From Carboxydocella thermautotrophica (GTDB taxonomy: Bacteria > Bacillota > GCA-003054495 > Carboxydocellales > Carboxydocellaceae), in NCBI GenBank assembly GCA_003054495.1, contig CP028514.1, positions 2,637,501-2,690,058 on the forward strand: a stretch of DNA of 52,558 nucleotides, read 5' to 3'. The position numbers and the translations under genes were made by a program. This document shows, in pieces, positions 5,484 through 39,110 of this stretch. The number at the start of each line of letters is the position of its first letter. The first letter of the stretch is position 1. The notes beneath the pieces were generated by a model. It was given only the letters and a program-made list of their open reading frames with translations, searched no databases and was not told the DNA's origin.

Positions 5484-6788
<1,305 letters not shown>

Positions 6789-8081
6789 TTACAGGCCCAG
6801 CCGGCCAAAAATGTAATCCACATTTTTTAAGTGGTATTGATGATCAAATAGTTCCTTCAGCTCCGCCGGAGTTAAATAGCGCCGGATATCCTCATCCAGC
6901 AAAAGTAATTCGGCAAAAGACTGTTGCTTATTCCAGGCCGCCAGCGCATTGCGCTGTACCCATTGGTAGGCCTCGGTGCGGGTAACTCCTTTGTCTATCA
7001 AAGCCAGTAATACCCGCTGCGAATAAATCAGCCCAAAAGTGCGATTGAGATTGCGCAACATGTTTTCCGGGTAAACAATCAGATTATCTATCACCCGTAC
7101 AAATAAGCGCAACATGGAGTGTACCAGGGTAGTGGAATCAGGGATGATTATCCGTTCCACCGAGGAATGGGTCATATCCCGCTCATGCCAGAGGGCGATA
7201 TTTTCCATTCCGGCCAGGGCATTGGCCCGCACCACCCGGGCCAACCCGGCTATCCGTTCACAGGTGATAGGATTGCGTTTATGAGGCATGGCCGAGGAGC
7301 CTTTCTGCCCTTTGGCGAAATACTCCTCTACCTCCAGTATATCGGTACGCTGTAAATTGCGAATTTCCGTGGCAAACTTATCCAGAGAGCTGGCCAGCAG
7401 GGCCAGGGCATTTAGTACCTCACCATGCCGGTCCCGCTGGATTACCTGGGTCGCTACCTGGGCAGGGGTTAATCCCAGTTTGGCTGCCACCAGTTCTTCC
7501 ACCCGCGGGTCGATATTGGCAAAAGTCCCTACCGCCCCGCTCAGTTTGGCCACACTGATGCGCCGCCTGGCTTCCTGTAACCGCTCCTGATGGCGCCGCA
7601 CCTCCGCCAGCCAGAGAGCCAGTTTCAGCCCAAAGGTGGTAGGCTCCCCATGGATGCCATGGGTACGGCCAATCATCAGGGTATATTTATGTTCCCGCGC
7701 TCTGCGCACCAGGACCTCTTCCAGCTTTGCCAGCTCCGTTAGAATCAGGTCCAGAGCCTCCCGAATCTGCAGGGAAAGAGCAGTATCCTTGACATCAGAA
7801 GAAGTCATACCCAGATGCAGGTATTTGGCTTCTTCACCGATTTCTTCGGAAACCGCCTGCAGAAATGCGATCAGATCATGCTGGGTTTCCTTTTCTATCT
7901 CATAAATTCGTTCCAGTTTAAATCCGGCTCTGGCCTTAATCACTTCCCAGGCTGCTGCTGGCACCTGGCCCAGTTCCACCATCGCTTCACAGGCAGCCAG
8001 TTCTACTTCCAGCCACTTCTGAAATTCCATTTCCGGTGCCCAGAGCTGTTTCATCTCCGGGGTAGTATAACGGGCTATCAC
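6789..8081 (-). CDS. purB: Adenylosuccinate lyase
   Basis: A 430-aa fumarase/aspartase-superfamily enzyme. It cleaves adenylosuccinate to AMP and fumarate, and SAICAR in IMP synthesis. The superfamily signature is clear as KGSSAMPHKRNPI (about residue 265), with TSSDVKDTALSLQ and GRTHGIHGEPTTFG earlier. The GTG start overlaps the stop of the upstream FAD protein by 4 bp (GTGA), indicating translational coupling. Confidence 0.98.
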   Translation of the reverse strand: MIARYTTPEMKQLWAPEMEFQKWLEVELAACEAMVELGQVPAAAWEVIKARAGFKLERIYEIEKETQHDLIAFLQAVSEEIGEEAKYLHLGMTSSDVKDTALSLQIREALDLILTELAKLEEVLVRRAREHKYTLMIGRTHGIHGEPTTFGLKLALWLAEVRRHQERLQEARRRISVAKLSGAVGTFANIDPRVEELVAAKLGLTPAQVATQVIQRDRHGEVLNALALLASSLDKFATEIRNLQRTDILEVEEYFAKGQKGSSAMPHKRNPITCERIAGLARVVRANALAGMENIALWHERDMTHSSVERIIIPDSTTLVHSMLRLFVRVIDNLIVYPENMLRNLNRTFGLIYSQRVLLALIDKGVTRTEAYQWVQRNALAAWNKQQSFAELLLLDEDIRRYLTPAELKELFDHQYHLKNVDYIFGRLGL

Positions 8082-28439: not shown

Positions 28440-28480
28440 CAGAAGGACAGGCGCCCTTCGATCAGGCACCTGTCCTTCTG
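28440..28480 (-). terminator. Long hairpin at the end of hypB (probable terminator)
   Basis: Minus strand 16-bp stem CAGAAGGACAGGTGCC/GGCGCCTGTCCTTCTG (one U-G), 9-nt loop. The first arm encodes the last hypB codons. What follows is TTATAGAAAAG, not a good U-tract, so it may be a terminator or an mRNA 3'-end stabiliser. Confidence 0.6.
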
Positions 28481-29112
28481 AATAGCCAATCAATCCACTC
28501 CTGCAAACCTTCCCCGGTCCGGCAGCTAACCGGAAAGATTTTAATATCTGGATTGATGGATAGTATATCTCTTGTAAGGCTCTCCATATTGCAATTACAA
28601 AAAGGCAAAAGATCGATTTTGTTGACAACAACCGCTTCCGATTCCCGGAAAATCAATGGGTATTTGAGAGGCTTATCATCCCCTTCAATTACACTCAGCA
28701 CAGCCACTTTTGCATCTTCCCCCAGCTGAAATTCCACCGGGCAGACCAGATTGCCTACATTTTCTATAATCAGCAGATCAAGATTGTTTAAATCAAATCG
28801 GGGTAAGACTCTTGCTACCATTCTGGCATCCAAGTGACAGGCTCCTTCGGTATTGATTTGTACCACTGGGATTCCGTGCGCCTCAATGCGCTCAGCATCC
28901 TTACTGGTATAAATATCCCCTTCGATCACCGCCAGGCGCAATTTGTTTTTAAGTTCAGCGATGGTGCGTTCCAGCAGAGTAGTTTTTCCTGCCCCCGGTG
29001 AGCCCATGAAATTGAATACCTTAACACCTGCGGCCCGGAAGTTCTGGCGGTTTAATTCAGCTTGCTGGTCATTGCTGAGCAGGATATCGGTTTTAATCTC
29101 TATTTTCATCAT
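28462..29112 (-). CDS. hypB: Hydrogenase nickel incorporation GTPase HypB
   Basis: A 216-aa SIMIBI GTPase that delivers nickel with HypA to [NiFe] hydrogenases or other nickel enzymes. G1 MGSPGAGKTTLLERT, Cys/His metal motif QINTEGACHLDARMV (Cys-His), ENVGNLVCP, and G4 VVNKIDLLP. No N-terminal His-rich nickel store. Overlaps hypA by 20 bp. The hydrogenase-like large subunit just upstream lacks nickel ligands, so HypB must serve enzymes elsewhere. Confidence 0.95.
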   Translation of the reverse strand: MMKIEIKTDILLSNDQQAELNRQNFRAAGVKVFNFMGSPGAGKTTLLERTIAELKNKLRLAVIEGDIYTSKDAERIEAHGIPVVQINTEGACHLDARMVARVLPRFDLNNLDLLIIENVGNLVCPVEFQLGEDAKVAVLSVIEGDDKPLKYPLIFRESEAVVVNKIDLLPFCNCNMESLTRDILSINPDIKIFPVSCRTGEGLQEWIDWLFRRTGA

Positions 29113-29455
29113 CTTCTACCTCCAAACTGCTGACCCTTAACTCCCGGCCAGCGGTGATTTCCGTTCTGGGACTTTGACAGTCAGGACAAAGGGCGACAAA
29201 ACTGCCGGTCGTTCTCCCTTGCCAGCCACACTCCTGACATTTTAACACTACCGGTATCTCAATGATTTCCAGTTCTGCTCCCTCACATACCGTTCCCCTG
29301 GCAAAGGCTGCAAAGCACATTTGCAGGGAATCAGGCAGAGCATGGGTCAATTCTCCCACTTCCATGGTTACTCTGGTTACTTTTTTGCCGGGATGTTCAG
29401 CCATAACTGCAGTGATGATTTCAAAAACCCCCGCCATCAAGGCCATTTCATGCAT
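29093..29455 (-). CDS. hypA: Hydrogenase maturation nickel metallochaperone HypA
   Basis: A 120-aa HypA. The start at 29455 gives the MHEMALM N-terminus whose His-2 binds nickel; an upstream extension would be non-native. Zinc ribbon CQECGWQGRTTG...LCPDC (about residues 72-93). It partners HypB. It lies 32 bp after a strong terminator, with little room for a promoter, so it may depend on read-through from the hydrogenase-like operon. Confidence 0.95.
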   Translation of the reverse strand: MHEMALMAGVFEIITAVMAEHPGKKVTRVTMEVGELTHALPDSLQMCFAAFARGTVCEGAELEIIEIPVVLKCQECGWQGRTTGSFVALCPDCQSPRTEITAGRELRVSSLEVEDDENRD

Positions 29456-29487
29456 ATTTTCGCCTCCGTTTCCCATCCCCATTTTAA

Positions 29488-29584: not shown

Positions 29585-30136
29585 TTAGCCCCGGATAATG
29601 GTCTTGATGTTTTGCCAGCCACTTTGCAAAACCAGATAGAGATGGCCCAGCACAAACACCAGCATCACCCAGGTCAGCAGATAATGTATCAGTCGCAATC
29701 GGGCAAGATCCCCCAGGGCAAAAGCCACCGGAGCCAGGGCAGGCTTCAACAAAATGACTCCAGTAACCAATTGCCCTATGATGAGAAAGGGGAGGAGGGT
29801 GTAGGCTAGCTTTTGCCCGGGGTTGTATTTGCCCTTTTGGGGGTAGCTAGAAGTAAGAAATAAATAATATTTAAGCAGTTGTCTTAAATCTTTCATGTCC
29901 TGCCAGCGGAAAACCACCTGCCGCCATTCACCTGTGACCAGGGCGAATCCCCAGCGATAAAAGGTCGCTGCCACCAGCAGCCAGCCGGCTACCAGGTGAA
30001 CGAGGCGGGCCCGATCCATCCCGGCAAACCAACCCTCCCAGAAGAGAGGATCATGTATATAAAACCCGGATAAAACCAGGAAACTGATAGCAGTTACATT
30101 CCACCAATGCACCAGGCGTACCGGAGCGGGATGCAT
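29585..30136 (-). CDS. Ni/Fe-hydrogenase-type b-type cytochrome subunit
   Basis: A 183-aa HupC/HyaC-like membrane cytochrome. Begins MHPAPVRLVHWWNVTAISFLVLSGFYIH; four hydrophobic helices with candidate haem histidines in RLVHWW, RLVHLVAGW, RLIHYLLTW and VLGHLYL. In group 1 hydrogenases this protein passes electrons from the small-subunit Fe-S clusters to quinone. Start overlaps the large-subunit stop (TAATG), so it is translationally coupled. Confidence 0.9.
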   Translation of the reverse strand: MHPAPVRLVHWWNVTAISFLVLSGFYIHDPLFWEGWFAGMDRARLVHLVAGWLLVAATFYRWGFALVTGEWRQVVFRWQDMKDLRQLLKYYLFLTSSYPQKGKYNPGQKLAYTLLPFLIIGQLVTGVILLKPALAPVAFALGDLARLRLIHYLLTWVMLVFVLGHLYLVLQSGWQNIKTIIRG

Positions 30137-31188
30137 TATAACCGCCTCCCTGTCGTTAAACTGACAGGGATGCCCCAGTCCCTGGCCAAAGCGTAAATGT
30201 CCGTTTCGGTAAGAATTCCCTGCCGCTGCCCTTCCAGCCAGAGGGAATTGAGCCATAGGTCAGGGGTAAATAGCCGCGCAGCAGCAACTTTATTCCTTTC
30301 CAGCCTGAGCTGAAGCCCAGCCGGACCGGCCGGAGTTTCCAGAAAAAGCTGAAGTTCACCCTCACACCGTTCCGGCCAGCGACTGCCCATTTCACCTTTT
30401 CCCTGACCGAGTTCTGTTAGCAATTTATCCGCCTTTGGTAACATGACTTTCAGTTCAGTAAGCATTGCCGCCAGATAGCCCCGGTGGTGGTAGCCCTGTA
30501 TCTTTTGCCGGGCCAGGGGGCCTATGAGACATACCCGGTCATCATAATACAGACCAGCGGGTTGTATCTTGATCCGGGACCAATCCAGCTCCTGTTTTTG
30601 GCCGTCAGCAACAACTTTTCCTCCTGCCATACCTTCTAAGTCCTGTGCTGCCAGCCAGTTCTGACTCAGTTCATGCAATTTTTCTTCTTGAGGTAAGGGT
30701 AAAAAGCTTTCTGTTTTTTTCCTGGCCAGATAATCCCCCAGCCAATCCAGAGAAATTCTGATAAACCGCCACTGCTCGGTGGTTAAAGGAGCTCCTGCTC
30801 CTCCCACTGTTAGGCCACAACCCATAGGACTGCGTCCGGTTAGAACCGCCAGCACTCTATGGCATTGGGAGATTGCTACTAACCAGTTCGGATCGCGGTC
30901 TCGCCGCCAGAGACGAATACTGTGATAGATAAACCAGTCAAACATCCTGATTAACAGACGTTTTTTCTTGACTCCCGTACTCACTTCCAGTCCGGTTAAT
31001 GTCTCGATAGCGGTTATACCCAGAAGGGTCAGGCTGTTGGCCAGCTCTCCCTGGGTTCGGGCCAGGAAAAAAGGCAGATCCAGCATATACTTATCCTGAA
31101 GCAAAGAATTACGAGGCGTCCTGGCTTGAATCCCTGCCTTTTCGGTAAACAGCACCGGAACAGCCAGACCTCTTTGCCAGTTAATCAT
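30136..31188 (-). CDS. NiFe hydrogenase large-subunit homologue lacking all NiFe ligands
   Basis: A 350-aa protein homologous to group 1 [NiFe] hydrogenase large subunits. CHRVLAVLTGRSPMGCGLTVGG (109-130) matches the AHRxLxxLxGKxPHPxxxVVGG block, and ETPAGPAGLQLRLERNKVAAARL matches the EAPRGxLGHxxxxxxGKI block near the C-terminus. The L1 motif RxCGxC is replaced by RTQGEL (Cys to Gln46 and Leu49), the C-terminal DPCxxC is absent, the RxEGH motif is not seen, and there is no cleavable tail. It cannot bind the NiFe(CN)2CO centre as known enzymes do. Frame is open throughout and its 8-bp overlap with the small subunit is intact, so it is not simple decay. Start 31188 follows GGAGGGAAGG. Confidence 0.85.
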   Translation of the reverse strand: MINWQRGLAVPVLFTEKAGIQARTPRNSLLQDKYMLDLPFFLARTQGELANSLTLLGITAIETLTGLEVSTGVKKKRLLIRMFDWFIYHSIRLWRRDRDPNWLVAISQCHRVLAVLTGRSPMGCGLTVGGAGAPLTTEQWRFIRISLDWLGDYLARKKTESFLPLPQEEKLHELSQNWLAAQDLEGMAGGKVVADGQKQELDWSRIKIQPAGLYYDDRVCLIGPLARQKIQGYHHRGYLAAMLTELKVMLPKADKLLTELGQGKGEMGSRWPERCEGELQLFLETPAGPAGLQLRLERNKVAAARLFTPDLWLNSLWLEGQRQGILTETDIYALARDWGIPVSLTTGRRL

Positions 31189-32077
31189 CGGCCTTCCCTC
31201 CCCGTTTGCCTTTTTGCCAGAGGGAATAGCCATAATGGGCTGCAATTCCGGTCATGGCTGCCGTAAAAGCCAGTTTACCTACTGTTTCCGGCGTACTTTC
31301 GATTCCAGGCAAAGCCACCTGAGGCAACCTGGTAGTCAGAGGAGCGAAATTTTGTGGAAACCCGGGTTGTGTGCACCCTATACAGGGTCCCCCGCCGCTG
31401 ACACACCAGTTGGCCCCTTCATTCCACAAGCGCTGGGAACAATCAGCAAAGGTTATAGGACCTTTACAACCCAGCAGCAAATAACATCCCACTTCCCCCG
31501 GAGCCTGGGCAAACCGGCTGTTGTCAAAATACTGCCGGCGTGGGCAATTATCATGGATGGTACCGCCAAAAATCTCAAGCGGCCGGGCAAAATCATCCAG
31601 CTCTAGATTGCGTCCCACCTGCAAAGCGGTCAATGTGGACAGCAACCAGCCAGGTTTGGGTGGGCATCCCGGAATGGCTATCAATTTTTTCAGAGGAGCC
31701 AGATCGATTAGCCCCTGCCATTCTCGCTCCCCGCCGCCTTCCTTTGCCATTCCACCATAAGCAGCACAGGTACCGAAAGCCAGTATCCAGCGGGCCCTTT
31801 TCAACATTTCCTGCAGCTGCCTGTCCCCGGAATCAACCGCTCCTTCCACTATCAGTACATCCATCGCAGTTGGCTGCTCTTCCAGCCAGGGATGAACACC
31901 CGGCGGGGCTTCTCCTGTCGCCAGCAGGGAGAGGACACAACCACCGCAGGAATTTCCGCGGTACCAGCCAATTAGGCCCAGACCAGGTTCATTGGCCCAG
32001 GCAAAATTCTCCCCTGCAGTAACAACCAGGGCTAGTGCCAGTAACTTGATAAATCTTCTTCTGTCAATTGTGTTCAT
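31181..32077 (-). CDS. Tat-exported hydrogenase small subunit
   Basis: A 298-aa group 1-type small subunit. Twin-arginine signal DRRRFIKLLALALVV; proximal cluster ligands in GNSCGGC, FGTCAAYGG and IPGCPPKP; distal and medial cluster ligands in DNCPRRQ, VGCYLLLGCKGP, FADCSQ, NWCVSGGGPCIGC; C-terminal membrane anchor (GKLAFTAAMTGIAAHYGYSLW). All cluster cysteines appear present, so electron transfer should be intact while its partner large subunit has no active site. Expected on the outer face of the membrane. Transcribed from the sigma-54-type promoter 32099-32114. Confidence 0.93.
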   Translation of the reverse strand: MNTIDRRRFIKLLALALVVTAGENFAWANEPGLGLIGWYRGNSCGGCVLSLLATGEAPPGVHPWLEEQPTAMDVLIVEGAVDSGDRQLQEMLKRARWILAFGTCAAYGGMAKEGGGEREWQGLIDLAPLKKLIAIPGCPPKPGWLLSTLTALQVGRNLELDDFARPLEIFGGTIHDNCPRRQYFDNSRFAQAPGEVGCYLLLGCKGPITFADCSQRLWNEGANWCVSGGGPCIGCTQPGFPQNFAPLTTRLPQVALPGIESTPETVGKLAFTAAMTGIAAHYGYSLWQKGKRGGKADD

Positions 32078-32098: not shown

Positions 32099-32114
32099 AG
32101 CAATATTTATGCCA
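32099..32114 (-). promoter_or_regulatory. Sigma-54 (-24/-12) promoter of the hydrogenase-like operon
   Basis: Minus strand TGGCATAAATATTGCT against consensus TGGCAC-N5-TTGCW: GG at 32112-32113 and GC at 32100-32101 are separated by exactly 10 bp. The expected start site is near 32089, just before the Shine-Dalgarno AAGGTGA, so the leader is only about 12 nt. The gene upstream encodes a sigma-54 activator. Confidence 0.85.
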
Positions 32115-32200: not shown

Positions 32201-34426
32201 TTAATTTTCAGACAACCAGCCAAATTCTTTTAATCGCAAATAGAGGGTTGCCCTTGGAATTCCCAGCAACTCTGAAGCTAAAACCTTGTTTCCCCCTGCT
32301 TCCGCCAGAGCTGCCTCTATCAATTCCTTTTCCAGTTCCCGCACCGCATCTTTTAGGGGTTTGATTTGCACCCTTCTTTTCGGTAAATCCTTCTCGAACA
32401 AGTAGGAGGGCAAATGTTCCGGTCTCACCACACTGCCTTCTGCCAGATACATGGAGCGCTCCAGGACATTTTCCAATTCCCGAATATTACCCGGCCAGTG
32501 ATAAGTCATCAGTAAATCCAGAGTCTCTTTGGCAATTACCTTTGGGGTAATCCCTTTTTCCCGGTACAGCTTTTCCCCAATTATATCGATCAAGCGCGGT
32601 AAATCCTTGATACGATCTCTCAGTGGAGGAATATGAATACCGATAACATTCAAACGATAATAAAGGTCCGCCCGAAAACGGCCTTCTGCTACCATCTTTT
32701 TTAAGTCCTGGTTGGTAGCAGCAATGATTCTGATGTCCACTTTAATGGATTTGGTTCCTCCTACCCTTTCTATAACCCTTTCCTGCAGAACCCGTAACAG
32801 TTTGGCCTGCATAGTCAGGGGTAAATCCCCGATTTCATCCAGCAACAGGGTGCCGCCATTGGCCAGCTCAAATTTGCCGGGTTTACCTCCTTTGCGGGCA
32901 CCGGTAAATGCCCCTTCTTCATAGCCGAACAACTCCGATTCCAGCAGCATCTCCGGCAAAGCAGCACAGTTGATGGCAATAAACGGCCCATTGGCCCGCG
33001 GGCTTAAATAGTGGATAGCCTGGGCCAGCACTTCCTTACCTACTCCGCTCTCCCCGGTGATGAGAATGGTGGAATCGCTCTGGGCTGCCCTTTCGCTTAA
33101 AGCCTTGATATGGGCTACTTCCGGCAAATCCCCCAGAATTCTTTCCAGACTCAGCATCGGTTTGGCGCGATCCAAATTGCGCAAGCGATCTTTATAGTAT
33201 TCGATTTCCCCCTGGGATAAGTTGAGCAGGTAAGGCAAGCACATATGAATTTCCGCCAGTCCCTGATAAACCGCCCTGGCTTTTTCCCGGCAGGATTCAT
33301 AACCACAGGCACCACAGTTCAACTCATCTTCCGGATTGATTTTCTGGGTAAATTTCAGGATCTCTCTGATATCATGCTCTGATGGTTCAGGCAAAGGCTG
33401 ATACTTATTGATATAACGGCGGGAAAGGTCCAGACCGGCAACTTTTAAACCCTGAACTGGAGGCTGACTGGACCGTTGCTGGGAAAAAAGCAGACTTTTA
33501 CGGCCATAAAACTCCAGGGGGCTGGCAATTTCAGGGCCATCTATACAACCGCGACAAAAAAGGATATCCAGAAATTTCCCGTTAAACTCTCCCCTTTTAA
33601 CAGCCTGCAGTACTTTGAGACACTCATCTTTACCTTCAACCACAGCCAGTTCCAGGTTATAATCGCGACCTTTGATGCCCAGGTTGCGCAGCAATCCCCC
33701 CGAAACAGGAAACAACTCAGTCAAACTTTCCTCCCAGCTGAGGGGCGTTTTATAGATAGCTGGCCTGATTCCTTTTTCTTGCCAGATTTCCCGGATCTCC
33801 CTGAAGGTCAGCACTCCATCCAGCACTCCCACCAGATTTTCGTCCCTGGCCTCTTCTTTTTTAGCTACACAGGGCCCGATAAATACCACCCGGTTTTCCC
33901 GGTTTTGCAGTTTCAGGTATTTGGCCAGGGCCAGCACCGCTGAATCGATGGGAGCTAAATTGGGGATCAATTCCGGCATATGTTTCTGGATCAGCATCAC
34001 TACCGCCGGACAATATGAACTGATCACTGTCGTTTTCTCTACCCGGGCCAGATATTCCCGATAAACCGGTACGGTCAATTCAATTCCTTTGGTAACCGGT
34101 TCAACCTCATTAAATCCAATTGCTTTTAAAGCCATGATTACCTGACCTACAGAAAACTCGGGAAAAGCCACCCGAAAGGAAGGGGCCAGAATAGCTATTA
34201 CTGGCTGTCTGCGCTTTTTTTCCAGCATCTCGCTGATTCGCTGCCAGTCGCTTTCTATTTGTTTGGCTTTTTGGGCACATATCCGGACACAATTACCGCA
34301 GCTGATACATCTTTCCGGCAAAATCTGGGCCTGCTTATCCGTTACTTTTATTGCTCTTACCGGACAATTGCGGATACAGGCATAACAGCTTTTACATTTT
34401 TCCTGGATAGTCTTAACAACGGCCAT
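32201..34426 (-). CDS. Sigma-54-dependent activator with ferredoxin and [FeFe]-hydrogenase-like sensor
   Basis: A 741-aa fusion. Residues 1-60: two [4Fe-4S] ferredoxin motifs (CKSCYACIRNCP, CISCGNCVRIC). About 75-330: [FeFe]-hydrogenase-like domain with H-cluster-like cysteines in SSYCPAV, GPCVAKKEEA and FCRGCIDGP. About 370-400: Fe-S domain CGACGYESC...C. Then the AAA+ domain with Walker A GESGVGKE, GAFTGA (contacts sigma-54) and GGTLLLDEIGDLP, and a Fis-type HTH (ASELLGIPRATLYLRLKEF). It resembles sensory (group D-like) [FeFe] proteins that regulate rather than catalyse. ATG at 34426 has GGAGG 7 nt upstream. It probably activates the operon starting at 32089 in response to H2 or redox state. 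Confidence 0.9.
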   Translation of the reverse strand: MAVVKTIQEKCKSCYACIRNCPVRAIKVTDKQAQILPERCISCGNCVRICAQKAKQIESDWQRISEMLEKKRRQPVIAILAPSFRVAFPEFSVGQVIMALKAIGFNEVEPVTKGIELTVPVYREYLARVEKTTVISSYCPAVVMLIQKHMPELIPNLAPIDSAVLALAKYLKLQNRENRVVFIGPCVAKKEEARDENLVGVLDGVLTFREIREIWQEKGIRPAIYKTPLSWEESLTELFPVSGGLLRNLGIKGRDYNLELAVVEGKDECLKVLQAVKRGEFNGKFLDILFCRGCIDGPEIASPLEFYGRKSLLFSQQRSSQPPVQGLKVAGLDLSRRYINKYQPLPEPSEHDIREILKFTQKINPEDELNCGACGYESCREKARAVYQGLAEIHMCLPYLLNLSQGEIEYYKDRLRNLDRAKPMLSLERILGDLPEVAHIKALSERAAQSDSTILITGESGVGKEVLAQAIHYLSPRANGPFIAINCAALPEMLLESELFGYEEGAFTGARKGGKPGKFELANGGTLLLDEIGDLPLTMQAKLLRVLQERVIERVGGTKSIKVDIRIIAATNQDLKKMVAEGRFRADLYYRLNVIGIHIPPLRDRIKDLPRLIDIIGEKLYREKGITPKVIAKETLDLLMTYHWPGNIRELENVLERSMYLAEGSVVRPEHLPSYLFEKDLPKRRVQIKPLKDAVRELEKELIEAALAEAGGNKVLASELLGIPRATLYLRLKEFGWLSEN

Positions 34427-34583: not shown

Positions 34584-35180
34584 ATGGAAAAACACAAAAT
34601 CCACGTGGATGACCCTCTGGTTGTTGATAAACTCTCCCGCCTTTTGGTCCGGCAGCTGGTGGACCTGGTCTTGCCAGGTCAGCCCATATTAATACTTTGT
34701 ATTGGTACCGATCGCTCCACCGGCGATGCCCTGGGGCCTCTGATCGGTACTCTTCTCAGCCAAAAACCCTGTCAGCCCTTCTGGATACTGGGTACCCTGG
34801 AAGAACCGGTTCATGCTGCCAACCTGGCAGAAAAACTCCAGCATATTTACAAAACCTGGCCCAATCCTTTCGTTATCGCCATTGACGCCTCTCTAGGCAA
34901 TCTGGACAGCGTGGGTCATATAACCCTGGCCCGCGGTCCCCTGAAGCCAGGAGCAGGGGTAAATAAAAATCTGCCCCCGGTGGGGCAGATCCATCTTACC
35001 GGTATAGTTAATGTGGGCGGTTTCATGGAATATTTCGTTCTGCAAAATACCCGTCTGTTTGTGGTAATGAAAATGGCCCAGGCAATCAGTTCCGCTCTCT
35101 CCCTGGCCAGCAGGCTCTGGGTAAACTTTCAGGATAAATACCGCAATACCTCGTCTTCTTCCACCTGGGAAAAATCCTGA
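34584..35180 (+). CDS. yyaC: Spore protease YyaC family protein (DUF1256)
   Basis: A 198-aa protein of the YyaC family, related to the germination protease fold and found in spore formers. Family text: LILCIGTDRSTGDALGPLIGTLL, WILGTLEEPVHAANLAE, VIAIDASLG and PPVGQIHLTGIVNVGGFMEYFVLQNTRL. ATG follows AGGAGG. Upstream AGTATAAA-N14-CGTATACT (34527-34556) may be a sporulation-sigma promoter (resembling sigma-E boxes), low confidence. Its 3' end overlaps the convergent phosphoribosyltransferase gene by 52 bp. Confidence 0.92.
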   Translation: MEKHKIHVDDPLVVDKLSRLLVRQLVDLVLPGQPILILCIGTDRSTGDALGPLIGTLLSQKPCQPFWILGTLEEPVHAANLAEKLQHIYKTWPNPFVIAIDASLGNLDSVGHITLARGPLKPGAGVNKNLPPVGQIHLTGIVNVGGFMEYFVLQNTRLFVVMKMAQAISSALSLASRLWVNFQDKYRNTSSSSTWEKS

Positions 35181-35746
35181 TAAAACTGGCCAACAGCGTA
35201 GAAATCCGAGGGCGCTTTCAAATAGACTAACTGATCAACTAATGGCAGAAATTCTTCCAGTTTTTCTTCCGGCAACACGGGAATGGCCAGCCAGAGCTGA
35301 AGTAAAGGCTGTTCTTTTAGATAATTGACTATTACCTTGATGGTATAACCAGTAGCAATACCGTCATCAACCAGGATAACATCCCTGTCCTCAAAATCCT
35401 CAGCCCACCAGGGCAGGTATTTTTCTTTTTTCAATTCCCATTCAGTACGGGCCTTGCTGATAGCCATTTCCACCTGGCTATCGGTAAGGCCCGCTCTTTT
35501 GGCCAGCACCCAGTCCACTATTGCTTCTCCACCAGGAGTAATTGCTCCCATCGCCACTTCCTCATTCCGGGGCAAGCCGATCTTTTTACTAATAATCACC
35601 TTGAGGGGGGCCTCCAGTAATTCTGCCAGAGGAGCTGCGACCACAATGCCTCCCCGGGGCACCCCTACAACCAGGGGGTTAATCAGTTTTTTACCTTTAA
35701 TTTTTTCCCTGAGCAGCAAGCCTGCTTCATAGCGGTTGACAAACAT
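35129..35746 (-). CDS. Phosphoribosyltransferase family protein (COG1926)
   Basis: A 205-aa predicted phosphoribosyltransferase. PRPP-binding motif VILVDDGIATGYT (about residues 118-130) and the COG1926 N-terminal text NPLVVGVPRGGIVVAAPLAELL, KKIGLPRNEEVAMGAI. Substrate unknown. Convergent with yyaC; no terminator is visible between them because the coding ends overlap. Confidence 0.88.
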   Translation of the reverse strand: MFVNRYEAGLLLREKIKGKKLINPLVVGVPRGGIVVAAPLAELLEAPLKVIISKKIGLPRNEEVAMGAITPGGEAIVDWVLAKRAGLTDSQVEMAISKARTEWELKKEKYLPWWAEDFEDRDVILVDDGIATGYTIKVIVNYLKEQPLLQLWLAIPVLPEEKLEEFLPLVDQLVYLKAPSDFYAVGQFYQDFSQVEEDEVLRYLS

Positions 35747-35797
35747 ACCAGACCCCTCCCGGCCTAGTGTATCCCCGGCCGGTTACTTTCATACCCT

Positions 35798-36280
35798 TTA
35801 TTCGCTTTTTCTGGGCGATAAAGCCAGGGCAATTGCCTCTTTTTCCTCATCAGTCAGAGGATAGCGGGATTGACCATTTTTTAGCGGTTTGGCATAGGTA
35901 CGGCAATCCTGCCGCCCATACAAACTGCTCAATACCACCCCGTCTCCTCGTTCATCCAGCAAAGCCACCGCAAAGCTGAGATCACTACCCGTGTCTTCAA
36001 AAGCATTAAACCTCACCACTGCTTTATTTTGCAGGCAACGAGTTAAGGTAATTTGCTGTTTAATCTGTTTTTCCTTCAATTCATTCACCTGTTTTTCCAG
36101 GGAATCCAGCCGTTCGGCCAGCTGTTGTAAATATCCTACCAAATCCCTGCCTTCCGCAGATTGCAGGAATTTTTTCAAGACAGCTGTTTTACGATTGGTC
36201 AGAACCCAGAACAGTATCAACAAAATGAATAACAAGCCTTCAAACGCCCCGATCAGAAGCAAAATCTGGTTTAACTCCAT
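35798..36280 (-). CDS. DUF4446 family protein
   Basis: A 160-aa protein: an N-terminal membrane helix (ILLLIGAFEGLLFILLILFWVL), a coiled-coil (LQQLAERLDSLEKQVNELKEKQIKQQ), and the family core VVRFNAFEDTGSDLSFAVALLDERGDGVVLSSLYGRQDCRTYAKPL. Function unknown; members usually lie close to parA-parB, as here. Its promoter overlaps the lar promoter. Confidence 0.9.
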   Translation of the reverse strand: MELNQILLLIGAFEGLLFILLILFWVLTNRKTAVLKKFLQSAEGRDLVGYLQQLAERLDSLEKQVNELKEKQIKQQITLTRCLQNKAVVRFNAFEDTGSDLSFAVALLDERGDGVVLSSLYGRQDCRTYAKPLKNGQSRYPLTDEEKEAIALALSPRKSE

Positions 36281-36306
36281 CCCATATCCTCCTTCCTATA
36301 TTTAAG

Positions 36307-36336
36307 AGTATACTATCATTGACTTTGCTGATGCAA
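36307..36336 (-). promoter_or_regulatory. Candidate promoter of the DUF4446 gene
   Basis: Minus strand -35 TTGCAT (36331-36336), 18-bp spacer, -10 TATACT (36307-36312). It overlaps the divergent lar promoter, so the two may compete for polymerase. Confidence 0.6.
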
Positions 36337-36347
36337 CATTTTACAAT
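36319..36347 (+). promoter_or_regulatory. Sigma-A promoter of larEBC
   Basis: Plus strand -35 TTGACT (36319-36324), 17-bp spacer, -10 TACAAT (36342-36347). Leader to larE is about 27 nt. Confidence 0.8.
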
Positions 36348-36380
36348 GTCAGCAGTAACATCTGGAGGAGGAACTTGGCT

Positions 36381-37211
36381 ATGCAAGCTAAACTGAAACG
36401 TCTGCAACAGATATTGAAAGAAAATGGCAGCTGCCTGATCGCTTTTTCGGGAGGGGTTGACAGCACCTTCCTACTACAGGCAGCTTTGAAAACCCTGGGC
36501 CCGGACCAGGTTCTGGCGGTTACAGCTTTTTCCGAAACCTATCCGGAAAGGGAACGCCAGGCCGCGGTCCAGCTGGCCCGGCAACTGGGAGCCCGTCTGC
36601 TTACCGTGGAAACGGAGGAGTTAGCCGATCCCGAATTTGTGGCCAATCCCGTTGACCGCTGCTATATTTGTAAAAAGGAACTATGGCATAAACTACAATC
36701 TATTCAGCAACAATACCAGTTACAGGTGATTTATGATGGCGCCAATGCCGATGATGCCAGCGATTTTCGTCCGGGCCGCCGGGCTACCAGAGAGGCTGGA
36801 GTCATCAGCCCCTTGCTGGAAGCCGGTTTAACCAAGGAAGAAATCAGGCAGCTTAGCCGGGAATGGCAGCTGCCCACCTGGAACAAACCTTCTTTTGCCT
36901 GTTTGTCCTCCCGCTTCCCTTATGGTAGCCCTATTACCAGAGAAAAATTACTCCAAATCGATGCCGGGGAAAACTGGTTAATAGAGCAGGGTTTCCTGCC
37001 CTGCCGCGTCCGTCATCACGGTGAAATTGCCCGTCTGGAACTGGCTCCTGACCAGCTGGCCCGTTTGGTAACTGATGAAAATCTACGCCAGCAGTGTCTG
37101 GAGAAATTCAAATCCCTGGGTTTCACTTATATTACCCTGGATTTGCAGGGTTTTCGCAGTGGCAGTATGAATGAAAACCTGTCGGAGGAAGTGAAAAATG
37201 GATACAAATAA
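36381..37211 (+). CDS. larE: ATP-dependent sacrificial sulfur transferase LarE
   Basis: A 276-aa PP-loop enzyme. SGGVDSTFLLQA binds ATP near the N-terminus; the sulfur-donating cysteine corresponds to PSFACLSSRFPYG (about residue 174), and RCYICKKELW adds two cysteines. It converts the bis-carboxy nicotinic mononucleotide made by LarB to the bis-thiocarboxylate. Start at 36381 has GGAGG 9 nt upstream; a TTG two codons earlier is possible. First gene of larE-larB-larC. Confidence 0.93.
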   Translation: MQAKLKRLQQILKENGSCLIAFSGGVDSTFLLQAALKTLGPDQVLAVTAFSETYPERERQAAVQLARQLGARLLTVETEELADPEFVANPVDRCYICKKELWHKLQSIQQQYQLQVIYDGANADDASDFRPGRRATREAGVISPLLEAGLTKEEIRQLSREWQLPTWNKPSFACLSSRFPYGSPITREKLLQIDAGENWLIEQGFLPCRVRHHGEIARLELAPDQLARLVTDENLRQQCLEKFKSLGFTYITLDLQGFRSGSMNENLSEEVKNGYK

Positions 37212-37959
37212 ACTTCTGAACCTGTTTGAACAAATTCGTGATGGCTCTATTAGTCCCGAAGCAGCTCTGGACCAGCTCAGGGATTTACCCTTCCGCGACC
37301 TGGGCTTTGCCAAACTGGATTTTCATCGCCAGCTGCGGCAGGGCTTTCCCGAAGTAATCTTCGGTCAAAACAAAACCGCTAAACAGTTAATCAGGATCTT
37401 CAGCCATCTCAAGGAACATCACGGTACAGTGATTGCAACCAGAGTGAGCCGGCCTAAGGCGGAAAAGGTGCTTTCAGCCCTGCCGGAATTGACCTATCAC
37501 CCTCAGGCCCGCTGTTTAACTTATGGTCAGCCCCAGCGCCCACGTAAACTGGGCACTATCGGTATTCTGGCGGCAGGAACCGCTGATCTGCCGGTAGCAG
37601 AAGAAGCAGCTCTCTGTGCCGAAATGATGGGTAACCCGGTGCAGAAGTTTTATGATGTAGGTGTAGCAGGCCTGCATCGCTTGCTCCATCTCCTGCCCCA
37701 GATTCGGCGCTGTAATGTTCTCATTTGTGTCGCCGGCATGGAGGGAGCCTTACCCAGTGTTATCGGCGGGCTGGTTAGCCAACCGGTTATCGCTGTACCC
37801 ACCAGTGTGGGTTATGGTAGTCACTGGCAAGGCCTGGCACCCCTGTTAACCATGTTAAACAGCTGTGCTCCCGGCATCGGAGTAGTCAATATCGATAATG
37901 GTTATGGAGCGGCTGCCCTCGCCAATGCCATCAATCGTCTGGGGGGAGTAGAAACATGA
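37198..37959 (+). CDS. larB: Nickel pincer cofactor biosynthesis protein LarB
   Basis: A 253-aa LarB. The N-terminal half is family-specific (LDFHRQLRQGFPEVIFGQNKTAKQL), the C-terminal half resembles PurE (IGILAAGTADLPVAEEAALCAEMMG, VCVAGMEGALPSVIGGLV). It carboxylates and hydrolyses nicotinic acid adenine dinucleotide to start the nickel-pincer nucleotide. Overlaps larE by 14 bp, with GGAGGAAG upstream. Confidence 0.95.
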   Translation: MDTNKLLNLFEQIRDGSISPEAALDQLRDLPFRDLGFAKLDFHRQLRQGFPEVIFGQNKTAKQLIRIFSHLKEHHGTVIATRVSRPKAEKVLSALPELTYHPQARCLTYGQPQRPRKLGTIGILAAGTADLPVAEEAALCAEMMGNPVQKFYDVGVAGLHRLLHLLPQIRRCNVLICVAGMEGALPSVIGGLVSQPVIAVPTSVGYGSHWQGLAPLLTMLNSCAPGIGVVNIDNGYGAAALANAINRLGGVET

Positions 37960-39110
37960 GCGGTATCGGCCTTTATTTCCAATGCCCCACTGGAGCAGCC
38001 GGCAATATGCTGCTGGCCGCCCTGGTTGATTGCGGTGTACCAGTCTCCTGGCTGGAACAACAATTGAAGACATTACCCCTGCAGGGCTGGCAGCTGAACT
38101 GGCAGGAAAAAAAACACCACGGCCTTCGCAGTCTGCATTTAGAGGTGGATTTTCCAGAATCCCAGCCGCATCGGCACCTGCACCATATCGAGACTATGAT
38201 CAGAGAGAGTGAACTGCCTGCCCCAGTTCAGGATCAGTCCATTGCCATTTTCCGCCGTCTGGCTGAGGCTGAAGCCAGGGTTCACGGTACTACTATTGAA
38301 AAGGTCCATTTTCATGAGGTGGGAGCCATTGATGCCATTATCGATATAGTAGGTTGTTGCCTGGCCCTATCTTATCTGCAACCCGCATTTATCGGCTGTT
38401 CTCCTTTACCGCTGGGGTCAGGAATGATTGAATGCCAGCACGGGCTAATTTCCGTCCCCGCCCCGGCTACGCTGGAACTGGTCAAGGATATACCTGTATA
38501 CCAGGGAGAAGAGCAAGGAGAACTGCTTACTCCTACTGCGGCAGCAATCCTGGGTTATTTTGTTCAGGAATGGGGCGCCCTCCCTCCGGGCCGACCCCTG
38601 GCCTACGGGTATGGAGCTGGTAGCAAAACTTTAAAACAGCCCAACATTTTACGGGCCATCCTCTACCAGCCCCTGTCCGAGCTGTCTACAGAAGATTTGT
38701 GGCAACTGGAAACAAATATCGATGACCAGCAACCGGAAACCCTGCCCGATGTGCTGGATAAACTGCTAGCCGCCGGCGCCAATGATGCCTGGTATACCCC
38801 GATATTGATGAAAAAGGGCCGCCCGGCCTTTACTTTAGGCTTGCTTTGCCCCGCGGAATCTCTGGGTCAGGTTGAACAAATCCTGGCGGAATCCACTACC
38901 TCTTTGGGCTGGCGCAAATGGCCAGTTAAACGCAGAGCCCTTCCTCGTCAGATTCAGGAAGTGGAAACCCGCTGGGGCATGATCAGATTCAAAGTTTCCG
39001 GCCAAAAAGCGGCTCCTGAGTATGAGGACTGCAAGCGTATTGCTGAAATAAGCGGTCAATCCCTGTTGAAAGTATATCAGGAAGCCTGGGCTGCCTACTG
39101 GCGTAGGTAA
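37956..39110 (+). CDS. larC: Nickel insertion protein LarC
   Basis: A 384-aa protein that inserts nickel into the pincer nucleotide in a CTP-dependent reaction. FQCPTGAAGNMLLAALVDCGVP, VHFHEVGAIDAIIDIVG and LETNIDDQQPETLPDVLDKLLAAGANDAWYTPILMKKGRPAFTLGLLC are diagnostic. LarC is complete in one frame here, unlike lactobacilli, where LarC1/LarC2 need a frameshift. Overlaps larB by 4 bp. No larA (racemase) is in the window, so the client enzyme is elsewhere. Confidence 0.94.
   Translation: MSGIGLYFQCPTGAAGNMLLAALVDCGVPVSWLEQQLKTLPLQGWQLNWQEKKHHGLRSLHLEVDFPESQPHRHLHHIETMIRESELPAPVQDQSIAIFRRLAEAEARVHGTTIEKVHFHEVGAIDAIIDIVGCCLALSYLQPAFIGCSPLPLGSGMIECQHGLISVPAPATLELVKDIPVYQGEEQGELLTPTAAAILGYFVQEWGALPPGRPLAYGYGAGSKTLKQPNILRAILYQPLSELSTEDLWQLETNIDDQQPETLPDVLDKLLAAGANDAWYTPILMKKGRPAFTLGLLCPAESLGQVEQILAESTTSLGWRKWPVKRRALPRQIQEVETRWGMIRFKVSGQKAAPEYEDCKRIAEISGQSLLKVYQEAWAAYWRR

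Follow-up and report, generated by a model that had tools for sequence, protein, structure and literature searches.

Complex I is regarded as a relative of the hydrogenases that has lost the NiFe site, and its NuoD/Nqo4 and NuoB subunits form a hydrogenase-type pair that has lost the NiFe ligands, has kept the proximal cluster and works with quinone. NuoD and the energy-converting hydrogenase-related complexes (Ehr/Mbx) lost the same ligands, and both belong to the group 4 side of the hydrogenases (PMC6349859). Ehr/Mbx complexes are cytoplasmic, carry antiporter-like membrane subunits and have neither cytochrome b nor Tat export. Group 1 [NiFe] and [NiFeSe] hydrogenases with cytochrome b (HyaABC-like; 4kl8, 1cc1, 3ze7) resemble the locus described here in subunit order, in a Tat-exported small subunit with three clusters, in the cytochrome b and in hypAB. 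No report of a ligand-free group 1 complex was found in literature searches confined largely to freely available papers.

We analysed a stretch of 52,558 nucleotides from Carboxydocella thermautotrophica (hereafter the window), which forms one end of a contig of 2.69 Mb; the genome measures 2.74 Mb. The original prediction held that one of its reading frames is a homologue of the hydrogenase large subunit (LSU) without any NiFe ligand, kept in an intact operon. The genes run in the order regulator, small subunit, LSU, cytochrome b, HypA and HypB, with YyaC divergent (Table 1).

Table 1 Features of the locus, with positions in the window
Feature	Position	Strand	Basis
HypB; homologues adjoin most orthologous operons	28462..29109	-	PF02492
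HypA	29093..29461	-	family search
Hydrogenase-type cytochrome b, candidate haem histidines kept	29585..30136	-	TIGR02125/PF01292
Ligand-free group 1 [NiFe]-hydrogenase LSU homologue, 350 aa	30136..31188	-	colinear homology; no L1/L2 cysteines
LSU stop TAA, overlapping the cytochrome b start (TAATG); relatives end here, before DPCxxCxxH	30136..30138	-	alignment, downstream frame check
Former L1 RxCGxC, now RTQGEL, residues 44-49	31042..31059	-	alignments and column table
Small subunit with Tat signal RRRFIK and complete ligand sets for the proximal, medial and distal Fe-S clusters	31181..32077	-	PF14720, PF01058
Sigma-54-type promoter element TGGCATAAATATTGCT, 37 bp upstream of the small-subunit start	32099..32114	-	motif
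Regulator: ferredoxin domain, H-cluster-like Fe-hydrogenase domain, sigma-54 activator AAA+, Fis HTH	32201..34426	-	domain searches
YyaC/DUF1256, divergent neighbour kept at the orthologous locus (synteny marker)	34584..35180	+	family search and locus comparison
Conserved flank: phosphoribosyltransferase, DUF4446-like, larE, larB, larC (synteny marker)	35129..39110	.	names read from sequences alone

Identity of the large-subunit gene

The LSU frame was open throughout and overlapped both neighbours in the normal way noted earlier, by 8 bp with the small-subunit gene and through TAATG with the cytochrome b gene. Its codon usage was gene-like (0.225 bits/codon; small subunit 0.251, cytochrome b 0.19), and the other frames of the region scored at most -0.345 bits/codon. 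A Pfam search with the protein returned no family at E<=10, and two NCBIfam [NiFe] models matched it below threshold, with 12.9 and 10.3 bits. A profile of 16 relatives scored 18.6 bits against it, compared with 4.3 bits for the best of 5000 shuffles, and hhalign gave a probability of 97.2% over 289 columns. An AlphaFold model guided by the relatives was of low confidence (pLDDT 57, pTM 0.58); in a Foldseek search with this model, the top PDB matches were hydrogenase LSUs, led by [NiFeSe] enzymes (E 7e-10). The colinear homology and, in this low-confidence model, the fold of a group 1 LSU were thus seen by profile, hhalign and Foldseek, and the L1 and L2 motifs were missing.

Canonical residues were retained in 23 of the 71 columns that are at least 90% fixed in 74 intact LSUs; since these 74 sequences had been picked by motif, their 100% cysteines are circular and were not counted as evidence. 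In the column table, canonical C61 is Q and C64 is L in the window protein. The L2 motif DPCxxCxxH is absent, the chain stopping at the alignment point where the relatives stop, and about 100 residues are missing compared with the relatives, every loss being in frame. A frameshift hiding CxxC motifs was looked for, and no CxxC occurred directly downstream of the gene in any of three frames. Furthermore, the operon recurs in a second genome of the species, where the LSU is 99.1% identical, so a sequencing error is ruled out. Selenocysteine read-through at the LSU end was rejected as well, for the fully ligand-free genes stop with TAA, TAG or TGA and nothing ligand-like follows. The window frame is a strongly diverged group 1 [NiFe] LSU without L1 and L2 ligands, as originally proposed. 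The small subunit likewise matched its earlier description, keeping ligands for three Fe-S clusters, a group 1 trait, and an RR signal that predicts Tat export.

Relatives at the orthologous locus

A scan of genome contigs with the window LSU alone found no relatives, and its comparison with the genomes of 61 relatives gave nothing beyond weak matches. Relatives were found by searching 398 genomes of the phylum with the small subunit, after which their loci were fetched and a Thermincola-group alignment search was made ('Thermincola group' denotes relatives whose named records are assigned to Thermincola or are Firmicutes MAGs). Eight genomes of one family had a ligand-free LSU at the same locus, and so did G058, which belongs to another family of the same class; this corresponds to 8 of 9 genomes in the family search and 9 of 10 in the Thermincola-related class. 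All four cysteines are absent from these proteins, which end at the DPCxxC site. L1 reads R(T/C)(S/N)GxDF in the Thermincola family and RINSHL in G058, and the C-termini are RSF and RAFE, respectively. Clade-specific residues occupy canonically fixed sites in the Thermincola family (WD in place of RG, Asp in place of the second L1 Cys and Thr in place of D417). The ligand-free profile aligned end to end with 4kl8_L (E 2e-90) and stopped at residue 490. These loci, orthologous and syntenic, show a lineage and not a lone wreck.

The loci of the window and the Thermincola group have larC, larB, larE, DUF4446, phosphoribosyltransferase and YyaC genes in common and are therefore orthologous. No new partner gene conserved at the orthologous locus was seen in the locus comparison. 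The window and the Thermincola group both have larE, larB and larC (nickel-pincer cofactor genes, named from sequence; window 36375-39110) close to the locus; the link to nickel is curious, and their proximity probably reflects a shared chromosomal neighbourhood. In G058, a second, shortened small-subunit-like reading frame (L051:10105-10839) lies between the ligand-free LSU and the cytochrome b gene.

Relatives also lack the ligands in the Thermincola class, and the picture is mixed in the window's own order. There, in an identical gene context, G002 retains the four cysteines (RICGIC and DLCLACAAH, without a C-terminal extension), and G001 has lost one L1 cysteine (RICSEE) and kept CAGC. An intact relative in the same context, which would speak for a single decaying copy, does exist in G002, but ligand loss is also conserved in the Thermincola group. 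A membrane-bound hydrogenase lacking its extension is reported to take up cofactor nonetheless (PMC7294309), so by analogy the G002 enzyme may be active.

As a control, 80 further small-subunit loci in the phylum were inspected, and an LSU match was found at 78. Both ligand motifs were matched by 69 of the 78, and none of the other nine was a full-length ligand-free LSU: in three the last L2 position differs (L131, L150, L167), L160 and L177 run into contig ends, the frame of L129 is broken, L117 and L136 have an in-frame TGA where the second L1 cysteine would be, and L166 is a truncated second hydrogenase of the window genome. This last LSU (G000:C1:1480000-1492000, at 6265-7215) has 316 aa in the window genome and 518 aa, with DPCLSCAIH, in the other strain. 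The window genome also encodes an intact group 1 hydrogenase (L194, G000:C1:1184000-1196000; RICGVC, DPCIACAVH); a cytochrome b, a multihaem cytochrome and a protease-like gene lie in its vicinity.

The in-frame TGA at the second L1 cysteine (RxCGV-TGA-P..H) occurred in four group 1 LSUs, L117, L136, L060 (near 8232) and L063. Each of the four genomes has a tRNA-Sec, and the sequence following the TGA can fold into a stem-loop. By position this residue is a bridging Ni/Fe ligand, which points to a possible selenocysteine elsewhere than at the known L2 ligand. L115, L148 and L046 have intact L1 and L2 cysteines and no C-terminal extension, the final histidine being the last residue. Loss of the RIEGH glutamate was rejected as a marker, since the four-cysteine enzymes of G192 and G003 also lack it.

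In all eight Thermincola-family sequences Asp64 (which replaces the second L1 cysteine), His68 and Cys414 are invariant, and they lie at or beside former active-site positions. The emptied pocket might thus have become a new catalytic site, with these residues as ligands of another cofactor or substrate. However, neither G058 nor the window copy conserves Asp64 and Cys414, which makes such a site one family's property at best, and no cofactor gene specific to these loci was seen; we consider it quite improbable.

Co-occurrence with the regulator was found in part: the regulator is adjacent in the window, G002 and G058 and does not adjoin the eight Thermincola-family loci. It retains H-cluster-type cysteine motifs. 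The putative promoter element before the small-subunit gene follows the pattern TGGC-N8-TGC and is identical in the second strain; counterparts precede intact operons with the same regulator in G049, G122 and G088, and none was found before the G002 and G058 operons. Such patterns are not rare across the window (7 observed, 5.25 expected), so the case for the element comes from its position and conservation. Adjacency and the sigma-54-like element would suit a redox or gas sensor arm, in which the complex signals redox state to the H-cluster-like sigma-54 regulator instead of serving respiration. Against this, the complex is predicted to be exported and no membrane part is evident in the regulator, intact operons adjoin this regulator too, so that ordinary regulation suffices, and the eight Thermincola-family loci lack it; a sensor role is therefore very hard to credit. 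HypA and HypB were rejected as a sign of nickel in the complex: the operon HypA can serve other hydrogenases, and it is the only HypA found in three Thermincola-family genomes, so its retention is no argument for nickel.

Selection and history of the ligand-free subunit

Nei-Gojobori dN/dS of the ligand-free LSU was 0.11-0.20 in four Thermincola-family genome pairs, beside 0.06-0.11 for the small subunit and a range of 0.06-0.15 across small subunit and cytochrome b. Intact LSUs of the G049/G088/G122 group gave 0.03-0.07. From its dN/dS, the ligand-free LSU appears to be functional in the Thermincola family, though less constrained than intact LSUs.

Ligand loss with the subunit pair kept is thus accompanied by purifying selection in the Thermincola group, and the picture is less clear in the window species. 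Its two strains differ in the LSU by 4 nonsynonymous changes and by no synonymous one; the corresponding counts in six neighbouring genes are 1 and 3. These are few events, and they give no hint of strong constraint. The window copy is the longest branch of all (7.7 changes per site) and the most degenerate member found. Because of this degeneracy, and because the strains differ only by amino-acid changes, the window copy may be under relaxed selection.

These features would also fit an enzyme in decay in the window genus, where selection for an exported uptake hydrogenase would be relaxed in a presumed CO-to-H2 organism and the frame would be kept open mainly by translational coupling to the downstream cytochrome b and hypAB. 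Further points in its favour are the few canonical positions left, the second hydrogenase LSU truncated in the window strain and complete in the other, and the report that C. thermautotrophica does not grow on H2/CO2 (PMC6085454). Nevertheless, we regard decay as rather unlikely: the lost residues were all removed in frame, codon usage is normal, the small subunit, regulator, cytochrome and promoter are otherwise intact, the strain differences are few, and another class conserves a loss of this sort under purifying selection.

In the small-subunit tree the Thermincola-class sequences were united (99/98), with G001 and G002 apart, and a single origin of all cysteine-deficient LSUs including G001 was disfavoured (AU p 0.03). 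The window sequence was too long-branched to place (AU p 0.17-0.20); the best identity of its LSU was 29%, to G002. Because synteny, taxonomy and this identity favour descent of the window locus with G001 and G002, the ligands would have been lost at least twice.

Putative function and comparison with known systems

Since all ligands are lost, a NiFe site of the known kind is excluded. We put at about one half the probability that the operon encodes a quinone-linked complex for electron transfer that is exported by Tat, descends from a group 1 hydrogenase and is unable to turn over H2. Such a complex would consist of a Tat-exported Fe-S small subunit, an LSU unable to hold a NiFe centre and a quinone-type cytochrome b, and the electron relay remaining would run between the cytochrome b and the proximal cluster. 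Because the chain halts exactly at the C-terminal ligand motif without an extension, assembly would need neither nickel insertion nor proteolysis. The complex would exchange electrons between the menaquinone pool and a redox partner on the outside that is not H2, with contact perhaps at the emptied cavity beside the proximal cluster, by analogy with the NuoB/NuoD cavity that came to bind quinone. In the window species the role of the LSU may by now be mainly structural. Electrode reduction is a known trait of Thermincola. C. thermautotrophica is reported to couple CO oxidation to the reduction of Fe(III) minerals (PMC6085454). The original reading thus survives as to a hydrogenase-derived, ligand-free and Tat-exported complex with cytochrome b that is no lone accident; it is weakened for the window copy itself, where selection may be relaxed.

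Living bacteria present the stages of this change, intact in G002, half-lost in G001 and fully lost elsewhere, which makes its steps testable. The Pfam [NiFe] model still scores the Thermincola-class ligand-free LSUs at 200-224 bits, so domain-based annotation could call them H2-converting, and the predicted H2 metabolism of the group may be overstated.

Compared with group 1 [NiFe] and [NiFeSe] hydrogenases, the four NiFe ligands are gone here, the chain ends before DPC(U)xxCxxH and there is no C-terminal extension. The nearest intact operons, those of G049, G122 and G088, have the regulator, small subunit, LSU, cytochrome b, HypA and HypB in the window's order, whereas their LSUs keep RICGVC and DPCLACAVH and possess the extension. 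A group 4 ancestry with antiporter-like subunits does not fit, as the best relatives are group 1 [NiFeSe] enzymes and the membrane partner is a cytochrome b. The NuoD/Nqo4-NuoB pair is group 4-related, lies on the cytoplasmic face and works with ion-pumping partners, while the pair described here is group 1-derived, predicted to be exported and anchored by cytochrome b. This looks like a parallel ligand loss within group 1 hydrogenases at one orthologous locus. We tentatively propose a non-H2 oxidoreductase from group 1 on the membrane's outer face, independent of complex I and Ehr, which may have arisen more than once at that locus and in which the cavity would be reused as an acceptor or quinone-type site.
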